DNA of 27,589 bases, taken from a virus. Positions 1-26,182 of the stretch are shown piece by piece. The notes beneath the pieces are model-generated. The model worked only from the letters and a program-made list of their open reading frames with translations. It searched no databases and had not been told where the DNA came from. Position 1 is the stretch's first letter; every line of letters begins with the position of its first letter. The DNA is taken from positions 1 to 27,589 of IMG/VR virus record IMGVR_UViG_3300030419_004608. The stretch is one strand, 5' to 3'. A program made the position numbers and the translations under genes.

Positions 1-186
1 GAATTAGATAAACGTAATATAATAGATTTAAGAGTTTTGGAAAATGGTGTAGGTTGTGAAAGGTTCGCTGAATTAGTTGCTTTATATCTACAAGATATTG
101 TTGATAAAGAAACAGATGGTAGGGTTTCTATTCATAAAGTACAATGTTGGGAACACGAAGATAATATGGCGGAATATGTCCGATAG
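1..186 (+). CDS. queD: 6-carboxytetrahydropterin synthase (QueD), C-terminal part only
   Basis: Only the last 61 codons lie in the window; the start is off the left edge. QueD turns dihydroneopterin triphosphate into 6-carboxy-5,6,7,8-tetrahydropterin, the second step of preQ0 synthesis. The visible tail fits the PTPS/QueD fold: a helix with a 'GCERFAELVALYL' stretch, then a terminal strand 'VSIHKVQCWEHEDNMAEY', which matches the family pattern of a strand followed by E-x(n)-A-x-Y. The stop at 184-186 overlaps the queE start by 11 bases, so the two are translationally coupled. The neighbours (queE, queC, folE, a DpdA-like gene) support the call. The catalytic Cys/His residues lie in the missing part, so activity cannot be judged. 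Confidence 0.8.
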   Translation, partial: ELDKRNIIDLRVLENGVGCERFAELVALYLQDIVDKETDGRVSIHKVQCWEHEDNMAEYVR

Positions 187-922
187 AATTCTTCCTATAA
201 ATGAAATGTATACTTGTTTACAAGGTGAAGGTAAGTTAACAGGAATACCACATATATTAATTAGAGTATCTGGTTGTAGATTAAGATGTCAGTTTGCTAA
301 TTCTTTTTGTGATACACCATATAGTTCGTGGAGTCCAGAAAAAGGTAAGTATAGTTATGAAGATATTTATGAATTTTATAAGAAACATAAAAGTATTAAA
401 CACACTATGATTACAGGTGGTGGACCAACATTACATTCAGGTATGTTAATTGCTTTATGTGAATTAGTAAAAGAGTTTGATCATTATATAACAATAGAAA
501 CTGAAGGTAGTGAGTACGTTGAAACTAAAGGTGATTTAATTTCTCTTTCACCAAAGTTATCAAACTCAACACCAAGACCTGGAACTTGGATGCCGTATCT
601 TAATAGAGAAGTTACAGAAAGTGATAAAAAGAAACACGAGAAGTGGCGTTGTAATTATGATGCTATGAAAGCTTTAATAAAACATCATCCTGATTATCAA
701 CTTAAACCTGTTATTTCAAGTGAAGAAGATTTACAGGAAGTAAAAGAGTTACAAAAAATATTAGATGTACCAAATGATAGGGTATATTTAATGCCTGAAG
801 GATTAGAACCTAAACAATTAAATGAAAGACGAAGATGGTTGATGGACTTGTGTGTTCGTGAAGGTTATAATTTTACAGATAGATTACATATAATAGCTTA
901 TGGAGATATACGTGGAGTATGA
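176..922 (+). CDS. queE: 7-carboxy-7-deazaguanine synthase (QueE), radical SAM, atypical cluster motif
   Basis: This 248-aa protein should convert 6-carboxytetrahydropterin to 7-carboxy-7-deazaguanine with SAM and a 4Fe-4S cluster. The N-terminus 'INEMYTCLQGEGKLTG' is the classic QueE substrate-binding opening. The cluster cysteines are C34, C38 and C45, which is CX3CX6C rather than the usual CX3CX2C, followed by the expected 'CDTPYSSW'. The SAM-binding 'TGGEP' reads TGGGP at residues 80-84, so its glutamate is replaced by Gly83. The frame is open upstream to 77, but ATG 176 is chosen because it gives the normal QueE N-terminus and overlaps queD by only 11 bases. Context makes the family assignment secure; the motif changes look like a variant subfamily rather than decay, since the frame is intact. 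Confidence 0.9.
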   Translation: MSDRILPINEMYTCLQGEGKLTGIPHILIRVSGCRLRCQFANSFCDTPYSSWSPEKGKYSYEDIYEFYKKHKSIKHTMITGGGPTLHSGMLIALCELVKEFDHYITIETEGSEYVETKGDLISLSPKLSNSTPRPGTWMPYLNREVTESDKKKHEKWRCNYDAMKALIKHHPDYQLKPVISSEEDLQEVKELQKILDVPNDRVYLMPEGLEPKQLNERRRWLMDLCVREGYNFTDRLHIIAYGDIRGV

Positions 923-1133
923 TTGGATAGGTTGGATAGGAACTGTAATGATTATATTTGGTTACTATTTCAACGCTAAAAAAATAAAAAATTGTTTTAT
1001 AATTTGGGGATTAGGTAATGTTGCATTTTTAATATATGCTTATTTAATAGATGCACCACCTCAAATAGCAATAAGTGCATTCGTAATTGGTATGAATGTA
1101 TACGGTTACAGACAATGGAGTTTAGATGAATAA
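900..1133 (+). CDS. Small three-helix membrane protein in the preQ0 cluster
   Basis: A 77-aa protein with three hydrophobic segments at about residues 9-25, 31-49 and 53-70, ending in 'NVYGYRQW'. The size and three-helix layout, with a Pro-Gln at the start of the third helix, recall half-transporters of the SemiSWEET/PnuC type, but I cannot assign a family with certainty. The start overlaps queE by 23 bases, and the 3' end overlaps queC by 8 bases, so it is embedded in the operon. A role in moving a base, nucleoside or vitamin linked to deazaguanine synthesis is plausible but is pure inference. An in-frame GTG at 912 is an alternative start; no strong Shine-Dalgarno decides between them. Confidence 0.65.
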   Translation: MEIYVEYDWIGWIGTVMIIFGYYFNAKKIKNCFIIWGLGNVAFLIYAYLIDAPPQIAISAFVIGMNVYGYRQWSLDE

Positions 1134-1851
1134 AGAAGCAGTATTAAGTATTAGTGGTGGATTAGATTCTACTTCGTTGTTAATTCATTTATTAGATAAA
1201 AGTTATGATAAGATACATGCTATTAGTTTTTATTATGGTCAAAAAAATGAATTAGAATTAAAAAGATTAGAGTTAAATTTGAAATATTTAAAATCTTATA
1301 AATTTGATATAAATCATACGTATATGAATTTATCAAGCTTTATGAGTAAGTTTAATTCTTCTTTGACAAGTAAAAGTATTTATGTACCTACTGGTAAAAC
1401 AGATGAAGATAAAATGAAATCAAACTTTGTACCAAATAGAAACGCTATTTTTTCAAGTTTGATTTATGGTTATGCAGTATCATTAGTAAAAGAAAAAGAT
1501 GTTTATGTAGATATAGGATTAGGTGTACACGATGGTTCACATACAATTCCACCAGATTGTACTCGTATATTTTTTGAAAAATTAGAAAGTGCATTTAAAG
1601 AAGGTAATATTGAGTCAGATAAAATAAATTATTATTTACCATATGTTGATGGTTATAAACATTTGATTGTTAAAGATGCGATTAAATGTTGTGATAATTT
1701 AGAATTAGATTCAGAAACAATATTTAGAAATACTTTATCGTGTTATCATCCTAATAGTACAGGAATATCTTGTGGTAAATGTGGAGCTTGTAACGATAGA
1801 GTATTAGCATTTAAAACATTAAAAGTAAAGGATTCAATAAAATATGAGTAA
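1126..1851 (+). CDS. queC: 7-cyano-7-deazaguanine (preQ0) synthase (QueC)
   Basis: This 241-aa protein is the ATP-dependent enzyme that converts 7-carboxy-7-deazaguanine and ammonia to preQ0. The PP-loop signature SGGLDST is at residues 10-16, and the family motif 'FVPNRNAIF' is in the middle. A zinc site near the C-terminus is complete: C206, C216, C219 and C222. Length is normal for stand-alone QueC, and there is no fused amidotransferase (Gat) domain like that reported in phages that make dG+. The start overlaps the small membrane gene and the stop overlaps folE by 8 bases, so the block is one operon. With no queF or Gat-QueC visible, preQ0 itself is the most likely end product here. Confidence 0.93.
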
Positions 1852-2473
1852 ATTAAAACATGCTAATGGTAATAATCCTTTAGATGAACAACAAAAATTA
1901 AATATGATTAAAGAAGCTTCTAAACATTATGGTCGTTATATGACAGCTCTTGGATTTGATTGGGAAAATGATCCTAATTCATCAGATACACCTATGAGAG
2001 TTGCTAAAGCTTTTGTTAATGATTTAGCAGATGGTGTTTATAATGGACCACCGAAGATTACAGCATTTGATAACGTTGATGGTTATGATGGTATAGTATT
2101 TCAAGGAAATATTAAATTACATTCTTTGTGTTCACATCATCACTTACCGTTTATAGGTAACGCTCACGTAGCATATCTTCCAACACCTGAAGGTAAAGTT
2201 ATTGGACTTAGTAAACTAAATCGTATAGTTGAGTTTTATGCTAGAAGACCTCAAGTGCAAGAAAATTTAACAATGCAGATTCACGACCATATAAATAAAG
2301 AATGTAGTAAAAATATTGGTGTTGCAGTAATGATTGAAGCTAATCATATGTGTGCTTGTGTTCGTGGTGTTAAACACGATGCTACTATGAAAACTGCTAA
2401 GTTAAGTAATACGTTTAAAAGTGTAGATAGAGTTAGAGATGAATTTTATAATTTTATAAGGGATTTAAAATGA
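1844..2473 (+). CDS. folE: GTP cyclohydrolase I (FolE)
   Basis: A 209-aa enzyme that opens GTP to dihydroneopterin triphosphate, the first step toward preQ0 as well as folate. The zinc ligands are visible as C96 and H99 in 'LCSHHHLPF', plus C170 in '[10 protein letters not shown]', which keeps the Cys-x3-Arg-Gly spacing of the family. The central '[22 protein letters not shown]' type segment is the highly conserved allosteric/active-site helix of type IA enzymes. It is full length and intact. It lies between queC and a phosphoribosyltransferase, with a 4-base overlap to the latter. In this setting it feeds deazaguanine synthesis rather than folate, because no other folate gene is present. Confidence 0.95.
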
Positions 2474-2874
2474 AAGAATTTGTAAGTTGGCAAGTAGTTG
2501 ATGAGTGTGTAACTGAAATTGCATTTCACCTTAAAGATACAGGTAAAGATTTTGTAGGTGTGTTTGGAATACCAAGAGGTGGTGTGATATTAGCTGTTAT
2601 GTTAAGTCATAAGTTAGACATACCATATATAACAGAATTTTGGAGAGTTGGTGATGGTGATATTGTAGTAATTGATGACATAGCAGATACAGGTAAAACA
2701 CTTCAATGGTATAAAGAACAACCTGAAACTAAAGATGCACATTATGTTACAATTCATGAACACGAACAAAGTATAGTTAAACCTGATTATTCAGTTTTAT
2801 ATAAACAAGATAAATGGATTGTTTATCCTTGGGAAGTAGAAGAGTCAGAAGAAGTACAGGATTATTTAAGATGA
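2470..2874 (+). CDS. Phosphoribosyltransferase, Gpt/Hpt-like
   Basis: A 134-aa type I phosphoribosyltransferase. The PRPP-binding signature with two acidic residues is at residues 66-77 ([12 protein letters not shown]), a 'GIPRGG' loop is at 33-38, and the C-terminal 'WIVYPWE' resembles the purine-base enzymes of the XGPRT/Gpt group. The family joins a purine base to PRPP to give a nucleotide. It is translationally coupled to folE upstream (4-base overlap) and to the DpdA-like gene downstream (ATGA overlap). Because DpdA-type exchange would release guanine, a guanine salvage role next to it makes sense (inference). It could equally serve general purine salvage; base specificity cannot be read from the sequence. 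Confidence 0.85.
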
Positions 2875-4055
2875 GTAAGTTTATATATTTTCCTTCGTTT
2901 TCAGCGGGAGCGATGGGTAATTCATTAGAAAAAAATGTCAAATTAAAGAATGGTCTATCTATTAGATTTTATAGTGAAGAATTTCCAGAGAGGTTTAGAC
3001 ATAAAGAAATATTAATAACAGCAGGTCATCATTATAAAGATGAAAATTATAAAGATGATTTAGGATTAACAGATAAAAATCTTGTAATGGGAGATTCAGG
3101 TGGTTATCAGATTGCGTCAGGTGCTATCAAATGGGATATGTCTATTCGAGAAAGAATTTTTAAGTGGTTAGAACATAACTCTGATATTGCGATGAATTTA
3201 GATATACCACCTAAAATAAAATATGAAGGTATGTATGAAGAATGTTTAAAGATTAGTAAAGATAACTTTAAATATTTTACAGATAATCAATCAGGTAATA
3301 CTGATTTCTTAAATGTTGTACAAGGTACAAATGAGTTTGAATATATAAATTGGTATAATGAAGTTAAAGATTTTCCTTTTCAAGGATGGGCTGTAGGTGG
3401 TGGAGGTAGAAGTGTATATGCTTTTATGTCAGGTGTAATGTCGTTATTGAATGGTAAAGAACATTTAAAAAATACAAATAAGTATTTTCATATTTTAGGT
3501 ATATCTAAGATTTCAGATTTTTTAATGTTAAATCAATTACAAAAATCTTTAAATGAAGTAGGATCTAATATAGTTGTTACAACTGATAGTTCTTCACCAG
3601 ATAGAGCAGTTGTTTTTGGTTCATACTATTTGAATTATAATTTTAAGAAAGCGACTTTTCAATCAATTAATGTACCTAAGTATGACGAGACTTTCAAGGA
3701 TCAAACATTTAAATATTTACCAGTATCTACTGAATTTGATAAGGAATATTTAAGAGAGGCGTTAACGTGGGATGATACTATAGAATGGAAAGGTCAATGT
3801 ACTATGGCTATAAGACTACATAATTTTATGCTTTTTAAAGAAGCTATTGAGAAAGCTGAATATTATGTTAATAGTCATGATTACATCTTAAAACAGATTT
3901 TATCTACTGATATGTATGAACTTTTAATGTCTTTAGATAAAATGGTTAAAAGTGATGATCCAAGAAAAGTATTTGAACAATATACACCATTATATAAGAA
4001 ATTAAGTAATACTAAAACAGAACCTAAAGTTAACACTAATCATAAATTTTTTTAA
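2871..4055 (+). CDS. dpdA: DpdA-like DNA 7-deazaguanine transglycosylase (TGT fold)
   Basis: A 394-aa member of the tRNA-guanine transglycosylase superfamily. TGT landmarks appear in order: 'MGDSGGYQ' with Asp75 (equivalent to the general acid Asp in DSGGFQ), 'NVVQGTN' (GIVQGG), 'GWAVGGG' (GLAIGG), 'HILGIS', and 'TTDSSSPDRA' with Asp239 at the position of the nucleophile. The C-terminal 'RLHNFMLF' mirrors the IHN helix, but the CXCXXC...H zinc site of tRNA-acting enzymes is absent and there is no PUA domain. This fits phage DpdA proteins, which swap guanine in DNA for preQ0. ATG 2871 is chosen because it gives an ATGA overlap with the previous gene; an in-frame ATG at 2814 lies deep inside that gene. 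It is the likely last step of the cluster. Confidence 0.85.
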   Translation: MSKFIYFPSFSAGAMGNSLEKNVKLKNGLSIRFYSEEFPERFRHKEILITAGHHYKDENYKDDLGLTDKNLVMGDSGGYQIASGAIKWDMSIRERIFKWLEHNSDIAMNLDIPPKIKYEGMYEECLKISKDNFKYFTDNQSGNTDFLNVVQGTNEFEYINWYNEVKDFPFQGWAVGGGGRSVYAFMSGVMSLLNGKEHLKNTNKYFHILGISKISDFLMLNQLQKSLNEVGSNIVVTTDSSSPDRAVVFGSYYLNYNFKKATFQSINVPKYDETFKDQTFKYLPVSTEFDKEYLREALTWDDTIEWKGQCTMAIRLHNFMLFKEAIEKAEYYVNSHDYILKQILSTDMYELLMSLDKMVKSDDPRKVFEQYTPLYKKLSNTKTEPKVNTNHKFF

Positions 4056-6054: not shown

Positions 6055-6276
6055 CTACTTACGAAATAAACCCACCAACACCAACAATGCGACGAGTCCA
6101 GCGAAACCAGATTCGCCGAAACTGTTTATGATTGATGTCAGGTTACCTATAACGTTGACGCCAAAGATACCAGTTCCAAAGATTACTTCAGAAACAGCAC
6201 CTATAGCAACAAAGGACATCATTAGATGAGCTAAGTCATCAATGTATCCTTTGACCATTGTTATGATTTCCTTCAT
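6055..6276 (-). CDS. Lone minus-strand 73-aa membrane protein
   Basis: The only minus-strand gene in the window. The 73-aa product has two hydrophobic helices, about residues 18-44 and 53-71, rich in Gly, Ala and Val, with a final 'FRK'. A close match GGGAGA (minus strand, 6287-6282) sits 5 bases before the ATG. The gene is visibly richer in G+C and in C-ending codons than its neighbours. Two exact TATAAATA late motifs read toward it (6379-6372 and 6411-6404), and it has its own terminator. These features suggest strong late expression. Two short helices would fit a holin or a small virion or membrane component. I recall similar unassigned proteins in marine T4-like phages but know no function. 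Confidence 0.8.
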   Translation of the reverse strand: MKEIITMVKGYIDDLAHLMMSFVAIGAVSEVIFGTGIFGVNVIGNLTSIINSFGESGFAGLVALLVLVGLFRK

Positions 6277-19996: not shown

Positions 19997-21097
19997 ATGT
20001 CCTTCAGAAAAAATCTTGAACCCGAAGATGTTCTGATATCATCCTTTCAAGTGCATAAATCTTTTACGTTTACTGATGCTGATAGTGGAAGTGGAGTTTA
20101 TGCAGTTAATCTTGTAAAAGGTACTGATTCTAATTCATATAATTATAATCCATCTTCTGCCGACTCTTCTAGTTTTGGTACTGGAAGTGCAGATTCACCG
20201 AAAACAAGAACATTTTTTCATGTTCCGTTATATCATTCTATTAATAAATTATATTATAAAGATATAGATAATATTAGAGGATATGTTGATTACTTTAGAG
20301 GTGTACCTACTTCGTCAGATGCGATTTTTAATTATACTTCAACAAGAAATTTATATGATACTAATTTACCACTTAGAATACCTCATACAAGACAACTAAA
20401 AAATAATGCAGTACTTATTACTGTTCCACAAAAGTTTTATGGAGAACATATAAAACCTACATCTATTAAATTAACAGATAATAGTACTTCTAAAACATTT
20501 ATATTACGTGATGATGGATACGGTAATTTATATGATGAAGCATACAGTTCAAGTTATGCTTCTAGAGCACCAGATACAAATCATAGTGGTAGTTTAGTTG
20601 GTAATGTTTTTTATAATGATGGAGTTATTGTTATTACTGAGACAGGATCATATTCTACAGTAGGAACTGGTAAAGGTTCTGATGGATTTAGTTTAAAACT
20701 TGAATCATCACAAACAATATATGAAAGAGAATACGTTTGTAAAGTGACTGAAGATGAGTTTCAACATACTACGAATAGAAGTTTAAAAGTTGGTTATAGT
20801 GGTAGTGTAGCTTTTTCAGGTAGTGCATTCTCTTCATCTTTTTCTAATACAATTCATGATGGATTTCCATATGATATAACAGGGTATGCTACAAGTTCAT
20901 ATGGAACATCAAAAGAATATGAAATAGGTACTAAATTAATTGGTGAATCTACACATTCTGAATTCGCAACCTATGTTTCAACTATAGGTTTATATAATGA
21001 TCAAAATGAATTATTAGCAGTCGGTAAAACGGCTAAACCGATAAAAAATGATAAGGAATTAGCATTAACTTTTGTTGTAAGATTTGATACAAATTAA
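19997..21097 (+). CDS. Virion structural protein with shared C-terminal domain, copy B
   Basis: A 366-aa protein, Ser/Thr/Tyr-rich, predicted all-beta. Its N-terminus 'MSFRKNLEPEDVLISSFQVHKSFTF' and body 'DYFRGVPTSSDAIFNYTSTRNLYDTNLPLRIPHTRQLKNNAVLITVPQ' (key run: N-A-V-L-I-T-V-P-Q-K-F-Y-G-E) are of a type found in marine T4-like phage virions. The C-terminus repeats the 'GLYNDQNELLAVGK' module of the preceding protein. It is the last structural gene before the promoter at 21096. Ribosome site is weak, which fits translational coupling across the stem-loop. Confidence 0.7.
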   Translation: MSFRKNLEPEDVLISSFQVHKSFTFTDADSGSGVYAVNLVKGTDSNSYNYNPSSADSSSFGTGSADSPKTRTFFHVPLYHSINKLYYKDIDNIRGYVDYFRGVPTSSDAIFNYTSTRNLYDTNLPLRIPHTRQLKNNAVLITVPQKFYGEHIKPTSIKLTDNSTSKTFILRDDGYGNLYDEAYSSSYASRAPDTNHSGSLVGNVFYNDGVIVITETGSYSTVGTGKGSDGFSLKLESSQTIYEREYVCKVTEDEFQHTTNRSLKVGYSGSVAFSGSAFSSSFSNTIHDGFPYDITGYATSSYGTSKEYEIGTKLIGESTHSEFATYVSTIGLYNDQNELLAVGKTAKPIKNDKELALTFVVRFDTN

Positions 21098-21103
21098 TAA
21101 ATA
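21096..21103 (+). promoter_or_regulatory. Putative late promoter (AATAAATA) ahead of the envelope module
   Basis: AATAAATA in the short gap after the structural block, 45 bases before the ATG at 21149. The ten bases AATAAATAAT are identical to those at 6349, and both sites are followed by a TATTTATA, so the arrangement is shared. This would make the 21149-26762 genes a separate late transcript. Confidence 0.5.
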
Positions 21104-21148
21104 ATTAAATATTTATAGTTGTATAGAATTTTTTATTTGGAGAAAAAA

Positions 21149-22435
21149 ATGAGAAAATTATTAATTACATTAATATTATTATCTACTTCTTTATTTGGAC
21201 AAGAATTTATTCTTAACTTTTTCAAATATTCCACAGCGTATGCTAGCTTTAGTTTAAACGCTCCACGTCATCAAGACGATAGATTTGCTATTATAGGTGG
21301 ATTATCTACAGGTCAATTAGAAGTAGATAGAAATAAACGAGAATTGAAACCAGATTTTCAAAAATCATTTGGATTGAGAAAAATTGGTAGATTTAAATAC
21401 GAACCAAAACGAGGTGTTAAGAATGCGGGAAATGGTGGAACTTGGTATGATGGTTCAGAACAAAACGCGAATGAAAATGCTACATTTGGACCAGTTAAAG
21501 GATGGGAATATTTGATTAAATGGTCAGAAGGTCGTCAATGGGGTAATGAATATCTCAATCAAGAATATTGGTTAAGATATACTGGTGATTGGTTAATGAC
21601 TAAAGTTGGATATACTGAATTAGGATTAGAAGACATTACATATTTACAAGGTGACATGAGATTAAAATGGACACCACCGATATTAGATGATAAATTAAAT
21701 TTAAGTGTTGGTTTCAAACACAGACAACATCCTGTTTATGGATTTGATGCTATGGTATTAGATACAACTTGGTATCGTGGTTCTTGGTGGGATTTTGCAG
21801 AAGATGCCTTTGGTATTGATGACAACGCTTGGTTTACAGAAGATTATCATTTGAATGGTGACCAAGATATTCAATTATATGAAATAGACCCTGTAAGTGG
21901 TGAGTTAAGACCAATTGAAGGTGGAGGTCCTTTTTGGAATGATGATGGTAGATTTCTTGGAGTTGATTGGTTGTGGAGAGATGAGAACGGTAGAATATTT
22001 GCTTATACAGATAGAGAATATTTCTTATATCACTTTCCAGGTATGTTAGAAAAATATATTAATGGAGTAAAAAAGAATTTAGGATATCAAAGAGAAACAT
22101 CACTTGTAGTCGGTGTTGATTATTATCATTATGATGATAATTGGTGGTTACACACTTGGGGTAATTGGTTACCTTATCATTTTGGACACGATAAATATTC
22201 ATATCATAACGGAGCACATTATCAAACTCATTTGGAAGAAAATAAAGCTCCAGAAAATTTTATGTTTATGGATCCAATGTGGCATTCTTGGAATGATTTT
22301 GATTTAGGTGCAATTTTTGGTGTAAAACTACAAGATAATCTTGGAGTATTTGCAGAAGGTCGTTATCTATATTATTGGGAACGACCAGCATATGAGTTTA
22401 AGTTTGGTATAAATTATCAATTTGTAGGATTTTAA
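21149..22435 (+). CDS. Predicted outer-membrane beta-barrel protein
   Basis: A 428-aa exported protein. The signal peptide is clear (MRKLLITLILLSTSLFG, cleaved before Gln18). The mature part is very rich in Trp, Tyr and Gly with alternating patterns, for example 'DMRLKWTPPILDDKLNLSVGFKHRQ', 'GVFAEGRYLYYWERPAYEFKFGINYQF'. It ends in Phe with the alternating aromatic pattern (F-G-I-N-Y-Q-F-V-G-F) that BAM recognises in outer-membrane barrels. I do not recognise the family. ATG 21149 is preferred over the in-frame ATG 21119 because TTGGAGA precedes it and the signal peptide starts there. Possible roles: blocking receptors against superinfection or altering permeability (inference). Confidence 0.75.
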   Translation: MRKLLITLILLSTSLFGQEFILNFFKYSTAYASFSLNAPRHQDDRFAIIGGLSTGQLEVDRNKRELKPDFQKSFGLRKIGRFKYEPKRGVKNAGNGGTWYDGSEQNANENATFGPVKGWEYLIKWSEGRQWGNEYLNQEYWLRYTGDWLMTKVGYTELGLEDITYLQGDMRLKWTPPILDDKLNLSVGFKHRQHPVYGFDAMVLDTTWYRGSWWDFAEDAFGIDDNAWFTEDYHLNGDQDIQLYEIDPVSGELRPIEGGGPFWNDDGRFLGVDWLWRDENGRIFAYTDREYFLYHFPGMLEKYINGVKKNLGYQRETSLVVGVDYYHYDDNWWLHTWGNWLPYHFGHDKYSYHNGAHYQTHLEENKAPENFMFMDPMWHSWNDFDLGAIFGVKLQDNLGVFAEGRYLYYWERPAYEFKFGINYQFVGF

Positions 22436-22445
22436 GAGAAATAAA

Positions 22446-22589
22446 ATGCCTAATAGAAAAGCAAAAGATAGGAAATGGAAAAAACGTAAACTTAATGAGA
22501 AATGGAAAAAAGAAGGTAGAACGGCAGTCCAACATAAAAAGTGGTTAAAGAAAAATAAAAATAAAAAAGATATAATGTGGGGGAAATAA
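22446..22589 (+). CDS. Small, highly basic 47-aa protein
   Basis: An intact frame of 47 codons beginning M-P-N-R-K-A-K-D-R-K-W-K-K and ending M-W-G-K, with about twenty Lys/Arg residues and four to five Trp. AGAGAAAT lies upstream, and the stop TAA overlaps the next start (TAAATG). It is too basic to be a membrane protein; nucleic-acid or LPS/acidic-partner binding is possible. It is the one product in this block without an export or membrane signal. No homolog recognised. Confidence 0.65.
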   Translation: MPNRKAKDRKWKKRKLNEKWKKEGRTAVQHKKWLKKNKNKKDIMWGK

Positions 22590-23183
22590 ATGTTTAAAAG
22601 AGTATTACTTGTAATAGGGTTATTACTTTTTAGTTGTGAGGATAAAGAATATATTCCTGTATCATCTATAAATATGTGGTTAAATGGAGAAGAAGTAGAT
22701 GTTGAACGAACTTATAAATCTATAACTACTTATGGTTCGAGAGATACTTATATAGATTCTACAGGTTCAGACGGAACTTGGATTGTAGTACAAAAAACAA
22801 GAAAAATATTTGTAATTCATTTTCAGGCAGAAGATGGTAGAATTCTTGCTGAAAATGAACACTACGCACTCATTTTTGTAGATTGGGATGCAGCTAGTTT
22901 TACTACAAGTTTAATTAATGAGGGAATTTATACTAATCCAGCAACAAATGATAGAGAAGTATTGTTACAAATAGTAGGTCCGTACGATTATACAATAGGA
23001 GCTGAAGCGGAGATAACTAAACTTCAAATGTTACCATCAGGACAATATGTAAGTGGAAGAGCAGAAGGAAGTTTCTATAATCCATTTGCTGACGCTGAAG
23101 TATATGGTATTTTAGAATTTGAAAATTTACTTATATCAACTGATGAAGAGAATACAACATATTATAATATACAAAGGGATTAA
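22590..23183 (+). CDS. Predicted lipoprotein
   Basis: A 197-aa protein with a lipoprotein signal: basic start (MFKR), hydrophobic run, and lipobox L-F-S-C with Cys16 as lipidation site. Glu-Asp at +2/+3 do not form the Asp(+2) inner-membrane signal, so outer-membrane sorting is plausible. The mature part is beta-rich and acidic, without known motifs. TAAATG coupling ties it to the basic 47-aa gene, and its 3' end nearly abuts the next gene. It could be an envelope-surface decoy, an exclusion lipoprotein or a lysis partner; none can be shown from sequence. Confidence 0.75.
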   Translation: MFKRVLLVIGLLLFSCEDKEYIPVSSINMWLNGEEVDVERTYKSITTYGSRDTYIDSTGSDGTWIVVQKTRKIFVIHFQAEDGRILAENEHYALIFVDWDAASFTTSLINEGIYTNPATNDREVLLQIVGPYDYTIGAEAEITKLQMLPSGQYVSGRAEGSFYNPFADAEVYGILEFENLLISTDEENTTYYNIQRD

Positions 23184-23184
23184 A

Positions 23185-23520
23185 ATGAAGAAATTAATAT
23201 TTTTACTTGCACTACTAATTCCAATTTCAGCTCAAGAAGTTGAAAAGGAAGAAGTAAAAGAAACTCCAACTGAAAAAGTTATTAGACATATTCAAGACGC
23301 AGACTTTAGAAAGTTTGAAGCGGCTCATCGTAGAGCTCATTCGAAACACAGAGGAGATCATTCAGTTAGAAAATCAAAACCTGAAATACATTGGTTTAGT
23401 AAGGTCGTAGTCATAACAGGTGCAGGTGTGATTGGATATTATATTGGTTTAAATGAAAGAAAAAAAGGTCGTAAAGGTAGTTGGAATAGACCTGGATATT
23501 ATTGGGGTGAAAGAAAATGA
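23185..23520 (+). CDS. Exported small membrane protein with basic ends
   Basis: A 111-aa protein. Residues 1-17 are a signal peptide (MKKLIFLLALLIPISA, then Gln-Glu). A charged, His/Arg-rich segment follows (about 30-70), then one hydrophobic helix at about 74-91 (VVVITGAGVIGYYIGL), and a basic tail 'RKKGRKGSWNRPGYYWGERK'. ATG 23185 is chosen over an in-frame ATG at 23119 because AAAGGGA precedes it and the signal peptide begins there. The stop overlaps the next gene by 4 bases. Topology suggests a periplasmic middle and a cytoplasmic C-terminus. Function unknown. Confidence 0.75.
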   Translation: MKKLIFLLALLIPISAQEVEKEEVKETPTEKVIRHIQDADFRKFEAAHRRAHSKHRGDHSVRKSKPEIHWFSKVVVITGAGVIGYYIGLNERKKGRKGSWNRPGYYWGERK

Positions 23521-23969
23521 TTTTAGAAGTATTATTACCGCTATTTATTATATTGTATTGGTTTAGTGAAGGTGTAACAGAAGGATATACTTGGGCTAAA
23601 GCAAAGAGAAGAAAAGAAAATAAATTAATTCATCCTAATAATGGTAAAAATGGTATTATGGATTATCATGGTTGGAGAATATTTGAAAACTTAGGTGTAT
23701 GGGGTACAGTAATTACCGCTTATTTTATGAAACCGTGTTGTGATGTACCTGTTAAATCTTTTTTTCTATTAGGAATTGGTGCTTGGTTAATTGGAACTTT
23801 TTGTTATGAAGCTGCATTAAACCATATTTATTACAATAAGATATGGAAGCCAGTTGATTATAAGTGGCACATATTTGGAAAAGATATACCCTGGTTTGGG
23901 GGTAAGAAATCATTAATTCTAATAGGAGTAGGATTAATAGTAATATTATTAGGTATTTTTTGGAGATAG
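23517..23969 (+). CDS. Multi-pass membrane protein
   Basis: A 150-aa protein with four likely transmembrane helices, about residues 2-18, 58-72, 80-102 and 131-149. A Cys-Cys pair and several Trp/His residues occur between helices. It overlaps the upstream gene by 4 bases, so the two are co-translated and may form a complex. No family recognised. It could be part of an inner-membrane assembly with the MshEN-like protein that follows 2 bases later. Confidence 0.7.
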   Translation: MILEVLLPLFIILYWFSEGVTEGYTWAKAKRRKENKLIHPNNGKNGIMDYHGWRIFENLGVWGTVITAYFMKPCCDVPVKSFFLLGIGAWLIGTFCYEAALNHIYYNKIWKPVDYKWHIFGKDIPWFGGKKSLILIGVGLIVILLGIFWR

Positions 23970-23971
23970 AA

Positions 23972-24550
23972 ATGGCACTTAACGGAAAAAGATTGGGAGA
24001 TTTACTTTTAGAAGCCGATGTGTTAACTAAAAGACAATTACAAAAAGCTTTAGCTTTACAGGCGTCAGGTGATAAAAGACAATTAGGTGAAATATTAATT
24101 GAGTTAAAGTTTATTACATTAGAAGATTTAACAGAGATTATGTTATCAAATGGTAGTAAAGCACCTATACAAACATCATCAGTAAAACCAAAAGAATTAA
24201 GTGAAGAAGCTGTATTAAATACGAAGTTTACATTATCAGTACAAACAATGATCGCAGCAGGAACTGGTCTTGCCTCATTAGTTGGTATGTGGTATGCATT
24301 ACAATCTGATATACAAGAAGCGAAAGAACTTCCTAATTTATCAAGCTTATATGAAAATGAGTATCCGTCAAGACCTGAAGGACATAATTGGCCAAGATCA
24401 TATGAACAATATAAAACTCAAGTAGGTTCATTACAGGAAGATATGGACGATGTTTATGAAACATTAGATGAATATGAAGAAAAAATTGAAGAACTTGAAA
24501 AATTAGTTTCTGATCTACGGGTACAGGTAGCTAACAAAAGGGATAAGTAG
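23972..24550 (+). CDS. MshEN-like domain protein with transmembrane helix and coiled coil
   Basis: A 192-aa protein. Residues 7-30 fit the 24-residue MshEN/T2SSE_N signature: R7-L8-G9 at the start, spaced hydrophobics, L17-type helix positions and Q30 at the end. A second, looser copy at 37-60 keeps L-G (38-39) and the hydrophobic pattern but has Gln for the Arg. In MshE, such paired motifs bind c-di-GMP. A hydrophobic helix is at about 93-110, and a strong acidic coiled coil at about 140-190. The domain would sit in the cytoplasm and the coiled coil outside. ATG 23972 is chosen because TGGAGA lies 6 bases upstream; TTG 23960 is an alternative. No ATPase domain is attached. Confidence 0.7.
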   Translation: MALNGKRLGDLLLEADVLTKRQLQKALALQASGDKRQLGEILIELKFITLEDLTEIMLSNGSKAPIQTSSVKPKELSEEAVLNTKFTLSVQTMIAAGTGLASLVGMWYALQSDIQEAKELPNLSSLYENEYPSRPEGHNWPRSYEQYKTQVGSLQEDMDDVYETLDEYEEKIEELEKLVSDLRVQVANKRDK

Positions 24551-24552
24551 TT

Positions 24553-24975
24553 ATGAATAAGATATTTAAAGTGATAAGTTTAACAATACTGTGGTTTTTA
24601 TATGCAGGTTATGTTTGGGCTCAAGATAAAGAAAAAGTTGAAAAAATAAGTGACAGTAATTTTAAACAACATATTTCTAAAGGTGTAGTTGTAGTAAAAT
24701 TTACTGCAAAGTGGAGTGATAAAAATTCTGCATACGATGAAGATGTTTTAGGTAAAGTAAAGGGACACGAAGAAGCTAAAATTATAACAGTAGCTTCAGA
24801 GGATACTAAAAAAGTTTGTAAAAAGTTAAGACTAAGAAATTTTCCATCTATAGTTTTGTTTTATGACGGATCAAAAAAAGAGGCGTGGAAGGCAGATATG
24901 GATGGTATATTAGATGTAACACATGAAGATATTAAAGATTCAATTGATGATATAATAGCAGGAGATGTATTCTAA
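24553..24975 (+). CDS. Secreted thioredoxin-fold protein lacking the CXXC motif
   Basis: A 140-aa protein with a signal peptide (to about Ala23-Gln24). The thioredoxin fold is plain: 'GVVVVKFTAKW' strand, the active-site turn, then 'KKLRLRNFPSIVLFYDG' with the cis-Pro loop at Pro98. The redox motif WCxxC reads W54-S-D-K-N, so both cysteines are lost and it cannot act as an oxidoreductase. A lone Cys89 remains. It probably acts as a binding or chaperone module in the periplasm. It starts 2 bases after the MshEN-like gene and overlaps the next by 1 base. Confidence 0.8.
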   Translation: MNKIFKVISLTILWFLYAGYVWAQDKEKVEKISDSNFKQHISKGVVVVKFTAKWSDKNSAYDEDVLGKVKGHEEAKIITVASEDTKKVCKKLRLRNFPSIVLFYDGSKKEAWKADMDGILDVTHEDIKDSIDDIIAGDVF

Positions 24976-25247
24976 TGGCTGATTTACCAACAGGACCTGA
25001 TGTAACTCACGGTGGAGATGGATTACCGGATTGGATGCAATTTACAATCACGGTAGCAATATTTGGTTTATTTGTATGGATTATATGGTTGTTATTTTAC
25101 TCTACATTAGATGATAAATTCAGAGATTTAATGAATATCATTGTGGGTGGTTTTTTGGCATCATTTGGTAAAGTTGTGGATTTTTGGTTTAAACACGATA
25201 GTAAGAAAAAATCAAATGGTGTGATTAAATGTACAGGAGGTAAATGA
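24975..25247 (+). CDS. Small membrane protein, holin-like topology
   Basis: A 90-aa protein with a short polar N-terminus, a strong helix at about 21-43 (MQFTITVAIFGLFVWIIWLLFY), a second hydrophobic segment at about 53-70 (MNIIVGGFLASFGKVVDFW) and a Lys-rich tail. Size, two helices and basic C-terminus resemble class II holins, but no endolysin is visible nearby and the call is by shape only. It begins inside the thioredoxin gene's stop and overlaps the first leader-bearing gene by 1-4 bases. Confidence 0.65.
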   Translation: MADLPTGPDVTHGGDGLPDWMQFTITVAIFGLFVWIIWLLFYSTLDDKFRDLMNIIVGGFLASFGKVVDFWFKHDSKKKSNGVIKCTGGK

Positions 25248-25570
25248 TGATTAAATTAAAGGATATTATAATAGAACGAGTAAGCCCAACTATAGTAAAA
25301 AAAGTTATGCAGTTTCGTAATCCTAAATTTATAGAAGCTGAATATAAACTTAGCAAAGGTAAAGAAAAAGAAAAATTTAAAGTTAAGAAAACACATGAAA
25401 ATGATAGTTTTTATTTTATAAATGTAAGTAGAGTTAAAGAAAGACCAAAAGAATTTAATAATTTTGAGTTTGTAATAGATAAAAAGAAACTTACTATAAA
25501 GTTTAGAGCTAAAATGGGAATGATGCCAAGTCTGATTTCTGACAAAATTTTAAGTATTAAAGTAAAATAA
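25247..25570 (+). CDS. Leader-bearing protein 1 (unknown), putative packaged head protein
   Basis: A 107-aa basic protein starting MIKLKDIIIE, the leader shared by four genes in a row. The I-I-E at residues 8-10 would be a prohead-protease site of the (L/I)-x-E type. The rest is Lys-rich and alternates strands and helices ('DSFYFINVSRVKERPKEFNNFEFVIDKKKLTIKF' region: a likely beta-sheet core) with no known domain. AGGAGG at 25235-25240 lies 6 bases before ATG 25247; the ATG at 25244 would leave only 3 bases, so 25247 is preferred and matches the other leaders. Inferred role: internal virion cargo. Confidence 0.75.
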   Translation: MIKLKDIIIERVSPTIVKKVMQFRNPKFIEAEYKLSKGKEKEKFKVKKTHENDSFYFINVSRVKERPKEFNNFEFVIDKKKLTIKFRAKMGMMPSLISDKILSIKVK

Positions 25571-25971
25571 TGATTAAGTTAAAAGATTTATTATATGAAC
25601 GTGATGAAAATGACACTAAAAATAGTGGTGGTATTTTATACTATTATGGTGATCAAGTATTATTATGTTTAAGTACTGGTTCTGGAAGGTGGAATATACC
25701 TAAAGGACATATTATGAAAGGTGAAAAACCATTAGAAGGATCAGTTAGAGAATTCAAAGAAGAAACTCAAATAATATTAAATGGTATTCCAGAGTTAGCA
25801 AATACATATAAAAAAGATAATGGTGGAAAATTTTATTTATATGTTTTTAAAGGTGAAAAAAGATTTGTACCTCATTTAGACTTTGAACATACTGATTGGG
25901 GTTATTTTGATATAGGTAATTTACCAGAACCGATAGATGATTGGGTTAAAGAGACTATAGAAAATGATTAA
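25570..25971 (+). CDS. Nudix hydrolase with the shared leader
   Basis: A 133-aa protein: leader MIKLKDLLYE (Y-E preceded by Leu, an L-x-E site), then a Nudix fold. The Nudix box runs from Gly46 to Ile68: G46-x5-E52-x7-R60-E61-F-K-E64-E65, with Gln67 where Gly is usual. All metal-binding glutamates are kept. 'RWNIPKGH' before the box is typical of the dinucleoside polyphosphate/RppH-like branch, which cuts Ap4A-type nucleotides or 5' RNA caps. Its ATG overlaps the previous stop by one base, and its last codons overlap the next gene's leader. Likely active; if packaged it could act at once on host nucleotides or RNA. Confidence 0.88.
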   Translation: MIKLKDLLYERDENDTKNSGGILYYYGDQVLLCLSTGSGRWNIPKGHIMKGEKPLEGSVREFKEETQIILNGIPELANTYKKDNGGKFYLYVFKGEKRFVPHLDFEHTDWGYFDIGNLPEPIDDWVKETIEND

Positions 25972-26182
25972 GTTAAAAAATATAGTAGAAGGATATATAC
26001 CACGAAGAAATGACAGTATGAAAACTGTATTCTTTTCTGCAGTAAGTGCGTTAGAAGATTTAGCCGAACTTTTTAGAGAAAGAGGTGATAGACTTACTGC
26101 TAACGCTCTAGAAAGAATATCACAGAATATTAGAAATATAATAACTGCAAATAAAACTTATAAGAAACACAAAAATGATTAA
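25964..26182 (+). CDS. Leader-bearing protein 3, small helical protein
   Basis: A 72-aa protein beginning MIKLKNIVE (I-V-E site), then a basic stretch 'GYIPRRNDSMK' and one or two amphipathic helices ('ALEDLAELFRERGDRLTANALERISQNIRNI'-type heptads; key run A-L-E-D-L-A-E-L-F). No domain recognised. Both ends overlap neighbours by 8 bases in the same way (…AATGATTAA…). In size it matches T4-type internal proteins such as mature IPI. Role inferred only from leader and context. Confidence 0.72.
   Translation: MIKLKNIVEGYIPRRNDSMKTVFFSAVSALEDLAELFRERGDRLTANALERISQNIRNIITANKTYKKHKND

Follow-up and report, generated by a model that had tools for sequence, protein, structure and literature searches.

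A predicted MshEN_N domain on a phage membrane protein from an accessory envelope block: a possible input for host c-di-GMP

The locus described here raises the question of what a domain of the c-di-GMP-binding MshEN type does in a phage protein that carries no ATPase. The gene lies near the end of the window, by which we mean the whole stretch of 27,589 nucleotides that was analysed. Its open reading frame has a GGAG six bases 5′ of the ATG at 23972 and a stop at 24550, and no T2SSE ATPase domain was found in the 192 residues that it encodes. An earlier note, made from the sequence alone, had described an MshEN-like domain in a phage, without an ATPase and joined to a transmembrane helix and a coiled coil; all of these points were confirmed. 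The features of the gene are as follows.

23972-24550, plus strand: focal gene, MshEN_N domain followed by transmembrane helix and coiled coil, 192 aa
23990-24061, plus strand: MshEN motif I (residues 7-30), which matches the extended consensus (R/K/L)LG...L...L..Q in full
24080-24151, plus strand: MshEN motif II, residues 37-60, with L38, G39 and L53 retained, Q37 for Arg and N60 for Gln
24227-24307, plus strand: predicted transmembrane helix, residues ~86-112
24401-24541, plus strand: predicted coiled coil, residues 144-190, probably periplasmic

In phmmer searches of the PDB the domain matched MshE (5htl, E 7.5e-6) and PilB (5tsg, E 8e-6), and a profile built from 58 relatives matched PilF (2e-11) and PilB (6e-9). 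The AlphaFold2 model of the head has the four helices of an MshEN_N fold (residues 3-14, 20-31, 38-44 and 50-61; pLDDT 74-85), and on its C-terminal side a further helix spans 90-118 and a coil 144-190. Structural comparison with MshE, which the earlier note had proposed as a check, returned the MshE/c-di-GMP complex as the top match (Z 9.4 over 57 residues with 37% identity; Foldseek rmsd 1.4 Å over 55 residues), followed by PilF-GSPIIB complexes. Confidence in the full-length model is low except in the head and coil, and because the pTM of the whole protein is only 0.32 the arrangement of its domains is not predicted. The charge flanking the transmembrane helix is of the N-in type in 44 of 58 relatives, which suggests an N-in, C-out topology with a cytoplasmic head.

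Searches of Pfam, PHROGs and INPHARED with the focal protein returned no family and no cultured-phage relative, and PF05157, the Pfam MshEN model, gave no match to it at E values up to 1. In host ATPases the PF05157 match lies downstream of the part that is similar to the phage domain, and the model therefore seems to describe MshEN_C and not MshEN_N; the MshEN_C subdomain, with its contact Asp, is absent from the focal protein. Relatives were found in at least 532 viral contigs. A cellular origin of the whole protein was rejected because no relative turned up among 84,980 cellular genomes in a pattern-based scan, its best cellular kin being proteins of the L142 type, described below, and ATPase N-domains.

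According to Wang et al. (2016, PMC5013675), the ligand is contacted in each MshEN motif by an Arg stacked on guanine, by Leu residues and a Gln, and through the backbone of a Gly; the first position has since been extended to R/K/L, with Lys as a high-affinity variant (PMC11731258). Motif I of the focal protein (RLGDLLLEADVLTKRQLQKALALQ) is complete and exactly 24 residues long, in agreement with the spacing read previously, and motif II (QLGEILIELKFITLEDLTEIMLSN) follows after a spacer of 6 residues; none of 20,000 shuffles of the protein reached a tandem motif score as good. The second copy that had been claimed after a short spacer is thus present at residues 37-60, but it is degenerate: it keeps four of the six key contacts in a QLG...N pattern, with Q37 at the position of MshE R38 and N60 at that of MshE Q61. 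Of its two half-sites, only the first carries (R/K/L)LG together with the final Gln.

Across the alignment of 58 relatives the contact residues G9, L23, Q30 and G39 are invariant, and MshE variants at the corresponding glycines, G11 and G40, lost binding (PMC5013675). Motif I is complete in 56 of the 58, mostly with Lys at its first position, and an Asp (D16) replaces the conserved Gly of its turn throughout. Position 37 is mostly T, K or S, and position 60 mostly H, S, N or T, with Q in six. T19, R21 and Q22 are also invariant and K20 nearly so; these four are the most distinctive conserved residues, yet none of them is a ligand contact, which suggests a protein partner.

The completeness of motif II follows the gene neighbourhood in this alignment, being found in all four proteins whose gene has H-NOX as its upstream neighbour and in none of the other 54 (Fisher 2e-6, for sequences that are related and not independent); each of the 54 departs from R/K/L at the first position of the motif, from Gln at position 24 or from both. 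One of the four, from L001, has a Cys in place of a motif I Leu. An H-NOX neighbour found later (L151) has K and Q in motif II, and a second phage type has K..E or E..E, so the rule fails for some H-NOX neighbours. The L001 gene (5450-5998) encodes a haem-NO-binding domain (Pfam 2e-46) in which YxSxR and a candidate for the proximal His were recognised by eye, and further phage H-NOX genes occur in L004, L050, L079, L151, L154 and L156. An MshEN-TM gene lies directly after H-NOX in all 12 loci with sequence beyond it, several of them near-duplicates, and the pairing extends to the second phage type, where a GH108 endolysin is encoded nearby. H-NOX was not found in eight host genomes, and the one phage H-NOX compared with PHROG matched no family. 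Among the contextual hints of a place for the head in a signalling pathway, this recurrent pairing is the strongest.

What such motifs may mean for binding can be gauged from PilF. A single Gln-to-Glu change in GSPII-B keeps binding at ~0.5-1 µM and a double change abolishes it (PMC11731258), while GSPII-A, whose deviations lie mostly in motif II, binds no c-di-GMP; in the GSPII-A background, restoring Ser at the first position of motif II abolished binding (PMC12002112). Given the QLG...N pattern of its motif II, we put micromolar binding of c-di-GMP by the window protein at about even odds, and by the L050 and L079 proteins at about two in three. That the focal protein could read host c-di-GMP is plausible, since its motif I half-site is intact, GGDEF occurs in most host-phylum genomes (100 of 120, with GGEEF in both sequences read) and motif II is complete in H-NOX-linked relatives. 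PilZ was found in none of eight host genomes. Production of c-di-GMP by the phage itself was set aside, as 17 long phage records held no GGDEF.

The focal gene is embedded in a block of genes for exported and membrane proteins.

21098-26174, plus strand: entire accessory envelope block, missing from L166, a syntenic phage contig
21149-22435, plus strand: outer-membrane beta-barrel protein with signal peptide
22590-23183, plus strand: predicted lipoprotein, LFSC lipobox recognised by eye
23185-23520, plus strand: small secreted or membrane protein, also in L007, L030, L032, L033 and L060
23517-23969, plus strand: multi-pass membrane protein, also in L012, L013, L020, L040, L080, L088 and others
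24553-24975, plus strand: secreted thioredoxin-fold protein without CxxC
24975-25247, plus strand: small membrane protein, holin-like

Neighbours were counted in 85 loci, with denominators of 80, 78 or 51 according to the item. A thioredoxin-like gene, mostly without CxxC, comes next after the focal gene in 80 of 80 relatives; a role for it as a redox partner is unlikely because CxxC is absent. Upstream, the barrel family is found in 76 of 78 loci and the lipoprotein family in 55 of 78. The model of the barrel, with a mean pLDDT of 61, is similar to outer-membrane beta-barrels such as KdgM and autotransporter domains (Z ~15), and a search of 245 phylum genomes, run without a positive control, gave no match that would make it a recent host gene. 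Within 6 kb downstream of focal relatives lie genes for Popeye-like proteins (20 of 51 loci), host-type prepilins (16 of 51) and a three-TM holin (16 of 51; phrog_3427, E 1e-26), the last two never together (0 of 51). A sibling of the holin-like 24975-25247 protein, at 8424 in L010, matched the phrog_689 holin (E 0.0014). The Popeye-like proteins are membrane proteins with a cyclic-nucleotide-binding domain (Pfam 2e-16 at L013 7247-7897) and matched no PHROG family. Kin of an MscS beta domain protein (Pfam 3e-7) are encoded upstream of the barrel gene at L007 3727-4152 and L002 3539-3892.

The envelope block is accessory and removable. In L166, an 18.9-kb phage contig from a Marinimicrobia assembly, most window genes were matched in order (~17 of 28 tested, including two tail paralogues with one common match), and only 24 bases separate the matches to the genes that flank the block in the window, namely the last tail gene (19997-21097) and the gene at 26175. 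Both flanks are in view in 57 records, made up of the window, L166 and 55 relatives; the gene is absent from 45 of these, many of which have a gap of 0.3-0.6 kb between the flanks. The combination of barrel, MshEN protein and thioredoxin-like protein occurs in five of the 57, and another seven have an alternative set of genes, where a related TM-coil protein that lacks the MshEN domain lies amid exported-looking proteins; the head is thus an optional part of a TM-coil protein associated with envelope genes. Examples of the alternative cassette are L176 1379-4932 and L183 3575-7489, where the TM-coil protein is headless and accompanied by several proteins that look exported; these neighbours matched no Pfam family and by eye appear exported, possibly PorV-like and CsgG-like. 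The cassette of the 126-kb contig L013 sits at ~22-37 kb, apart from this hotspot (L229). A virion or tail protein is unlikely in view of the membrane helix, the exported neighbours and the loss of the block from a related phage contig.

The host of this phage family is probably Marinimicrobia. For the window phage the assignment comes from its relatives, in binned assemblies that can be contaminated, and a related baseplate gene was found in only 2 of 245 phylum genomes. The link to the host extends to type IV pili, with two to four prepilins per phage in L005 (7208-9115), L013 (8109-10177), L017 (7227-9273) and L018 (7473-9442). Full-length matches to the first of these, PIL1, are mostly from Candidatus Neomarinimicrobiota at 45-70% identity, and the corresponding host operon holds a prepilin peptidase, PilB, PilC, more prepilins and a secretin-like gene (names by eye). 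In eight host genomes the Pfam MshEN model matched only PilB-type and GspE-like ATPases, types that were assigned by context in several cases and by frame length otherwise, and the best matches of the phage domain in host genomes are PilB-type (31-41% identity). The idea that the phage encodes a complete T2SS or T4P apparatus was rejected, as none of 17 long phage records held a T2SSE ATPase over the cut-off; matches below it, judged from L138 alone, are apparently Walker motifs of an AAA protein.

We favour, with a probability of roughly 0.42, the reading that the focal protein is part of a phage-encoded, signal-gated trans-envelope complex in which the MshEN head is the input domain, most likely for host c-di-GMP. 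It would be a single-pass inner-membrane protein, encoded by T4-like marine phages in an accessory envelope cassette, its cytoplasmic MshEN_N head sensing the nucleotide and passing its state through the transmembrane helix to the periplasmic coiled coil and from there to the thioredoxin-like protein, its constant partner. The latter would connect to the phage-encoded outer-membrane barrel and the lipoprotein, and the output would be a change in envelope or type IV pilus activity of the infected cell according to host signalling state. In some members H-NOX may add a second input (NO or O2), and in others the phage prepilins would be a likely output. We infer complex formation with the neighbours from synteny alone. 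A wider picture seems to us somewhat unlikely: an exchangeable envelope machine in which, during infection, MshEN would sense c-di-GMP, H-NOX would sense NO or O2 and the Popeye-like protein perhaps a cyclic nucleotide, with a phage-encoded complex of inner-membrane, periplasmic and outer-membrane parts relaying these signals to the surface, in some phages via captured type IV pilins.

The conserved TKRQ surface invites a different explanation, in which the head binds no ligand but holds a protein partner and so serves as the constitutive inner-membrane anchor of a trans-envelope complex. Such a docking role would account for the near-complete conservation of T19-Q22 at positions that contact no ligand, for the incomplete motif II of 54 of the 58 relatives and for headless TM-coil proteins at the same hotspot, and GSPII-A provides a precedent for a member that does not bind (PMC12002112). 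It sits less well with the invariance of G9, L23 and Q30 in motif I and G39 in motif II, or with the complete motif II of H-NOX-adjacent siblings, and we regard it as possible, if on the doubtful side.

Two further explanations look outward to the pilus or to lysis. As a mimic of PilB, the head would take the docking site of the host PilB N-domain, or compete for a PilB regulator, and so block or redirect the type IV pilus; the host pilus may also assemble the phage prepilins, with exclusion of pilus-dependent superinfection or altered surface behaviour as possible consequences. The restriction of Pfam MshEN matches in the eight host genomes to the PilB of the prepilin operon and a GspE-like ATPase, the PilB-type best matches, the prepilins like those of the host operon in 16 of 51 relatives and the want of a phage T2SSE ATPase over the cut-off all fit this proposal. 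The first of these points and the prepilins of sibling phages also lend indirect support to the suggestion in the earlier note that the protein could jam a pilus or secretion ATPase by mimicry. However, the window has no prepilin gene, prepilin carriers are confined to one derived clade, the cassette persists in the two-thirds of relatives that have no prepilin nearby, and the head lacks MshEN_C. We judge mimicry distinctly unlikely. An i-spanin-like or antiholin-like protein, with its coil in the periplasm and a head that tunes the timing of lysis, would explain the spanin-like combination of TM helix and coil, the phrog_3427 holin near 16 of 51 relatives and, in the second phage type, the position of the gene 5′ of TM-coil genes and a GH108 endolysin. 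Against this, the whole block is missing from the related phage contig L166; most relatives lack the phrog_3427 holin, which in no case accompanies prepilins, and no endolysin was recognised in the window block. We consider a lysis function very improbable.

If the head does bind c-di-GMP, as the signal-gated reading proposes, the protein would be a phage-encoded receptor for a host lifestyle signal, wired across the cell envelope. No phage-encoded, envelope-spanning c-di-GMP receptor was reported in the literature searched, a PMC subset in which we found nothing relevant on phage MshEN domains, phage H-NOX or phage pilins. It would also offer an entry point to how viruses reshape the cell surface in Marinimicrobia, an ocean phylum that is widespread and for the most part uncultured, and the host-type prepilins and H-NOX of some phages make pili and nitric-oxide signalling possible targets. 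On a practical level, nature supplies a series of proteins with both half-sites, with one half-site or with no head, so the question can be tested directly on small soluble domains.

Several other features of the window and related phages deserve mention. Many unrelated small phage proteins (Nudix, metalloprotease-like, P-loop, HAD-like) share the start MIKLKDLLxE, found in the window at 25244, 25570, 25964 and 26175 and in 119 ORFs of 51 phage loci but in none of 1170 host-locus ORFs; it resembles the capsid-targeting sequence of T4 and may mark capsid-packaged proteins. Window positions 176-4055 carry genes for QueC, GTP cyclohydrolase I and radical SAM proteins, with an ORF at 2814 that is TGT/DpdA-like by eye, and possibly constitute a 7-deazaguanine DNA modification pathway. 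A lone small membrane-type ORF lies on the minus strand at 6055-6276, amid late genes.

Among known systems, the anti-pilus proteins Tip and Aqs1 of Pseudomonas phages resemble the focal protein in that it too would act on a pilus ATPase system, but they are small and soluble and are not known to have an MshEN domain. Spanins (Rz) and other small TM-coil phage proteins share with it a single transmembrane helix, a probably periplasmic coil and, at times, a holin nearby; unlike them, the focal protein has a sizeable cytoplasmic head and an accessory location, and no o-spanin was recognised. Thermus thermophilus PilF (PMC11731258, PMC12002112) is a cytosolic ATPase with three GSPII domains, whereas the phage protein has one half-domain, anchored in a membrane; most phage relatives share the GSPII-B Lys at motif I position 1, and their motif II deviations recall the non-binding GSPII-A. 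Residues 1-145 of V. cholerae MshE (5htl; PMC5013675) have the same tandem 24-residue motifs, four-helix N-subdomain and most of the Gly, Leu and Gln contacts, but in the phage protein motif II is degenerate and fusion to a membrane helix and coil takes the place of MshEN_C and the ATPase. Finally, a 242-aa protein of Marinimicrobia (L142 1489-2214, L143, L145) is cellular, has neither a thioredoxin-like nor a barrel neighbour and is very distant in the tree, yet it shares with the phage protein the same MshEN-TM-coil architecture and an ITK(K/R)QL core.
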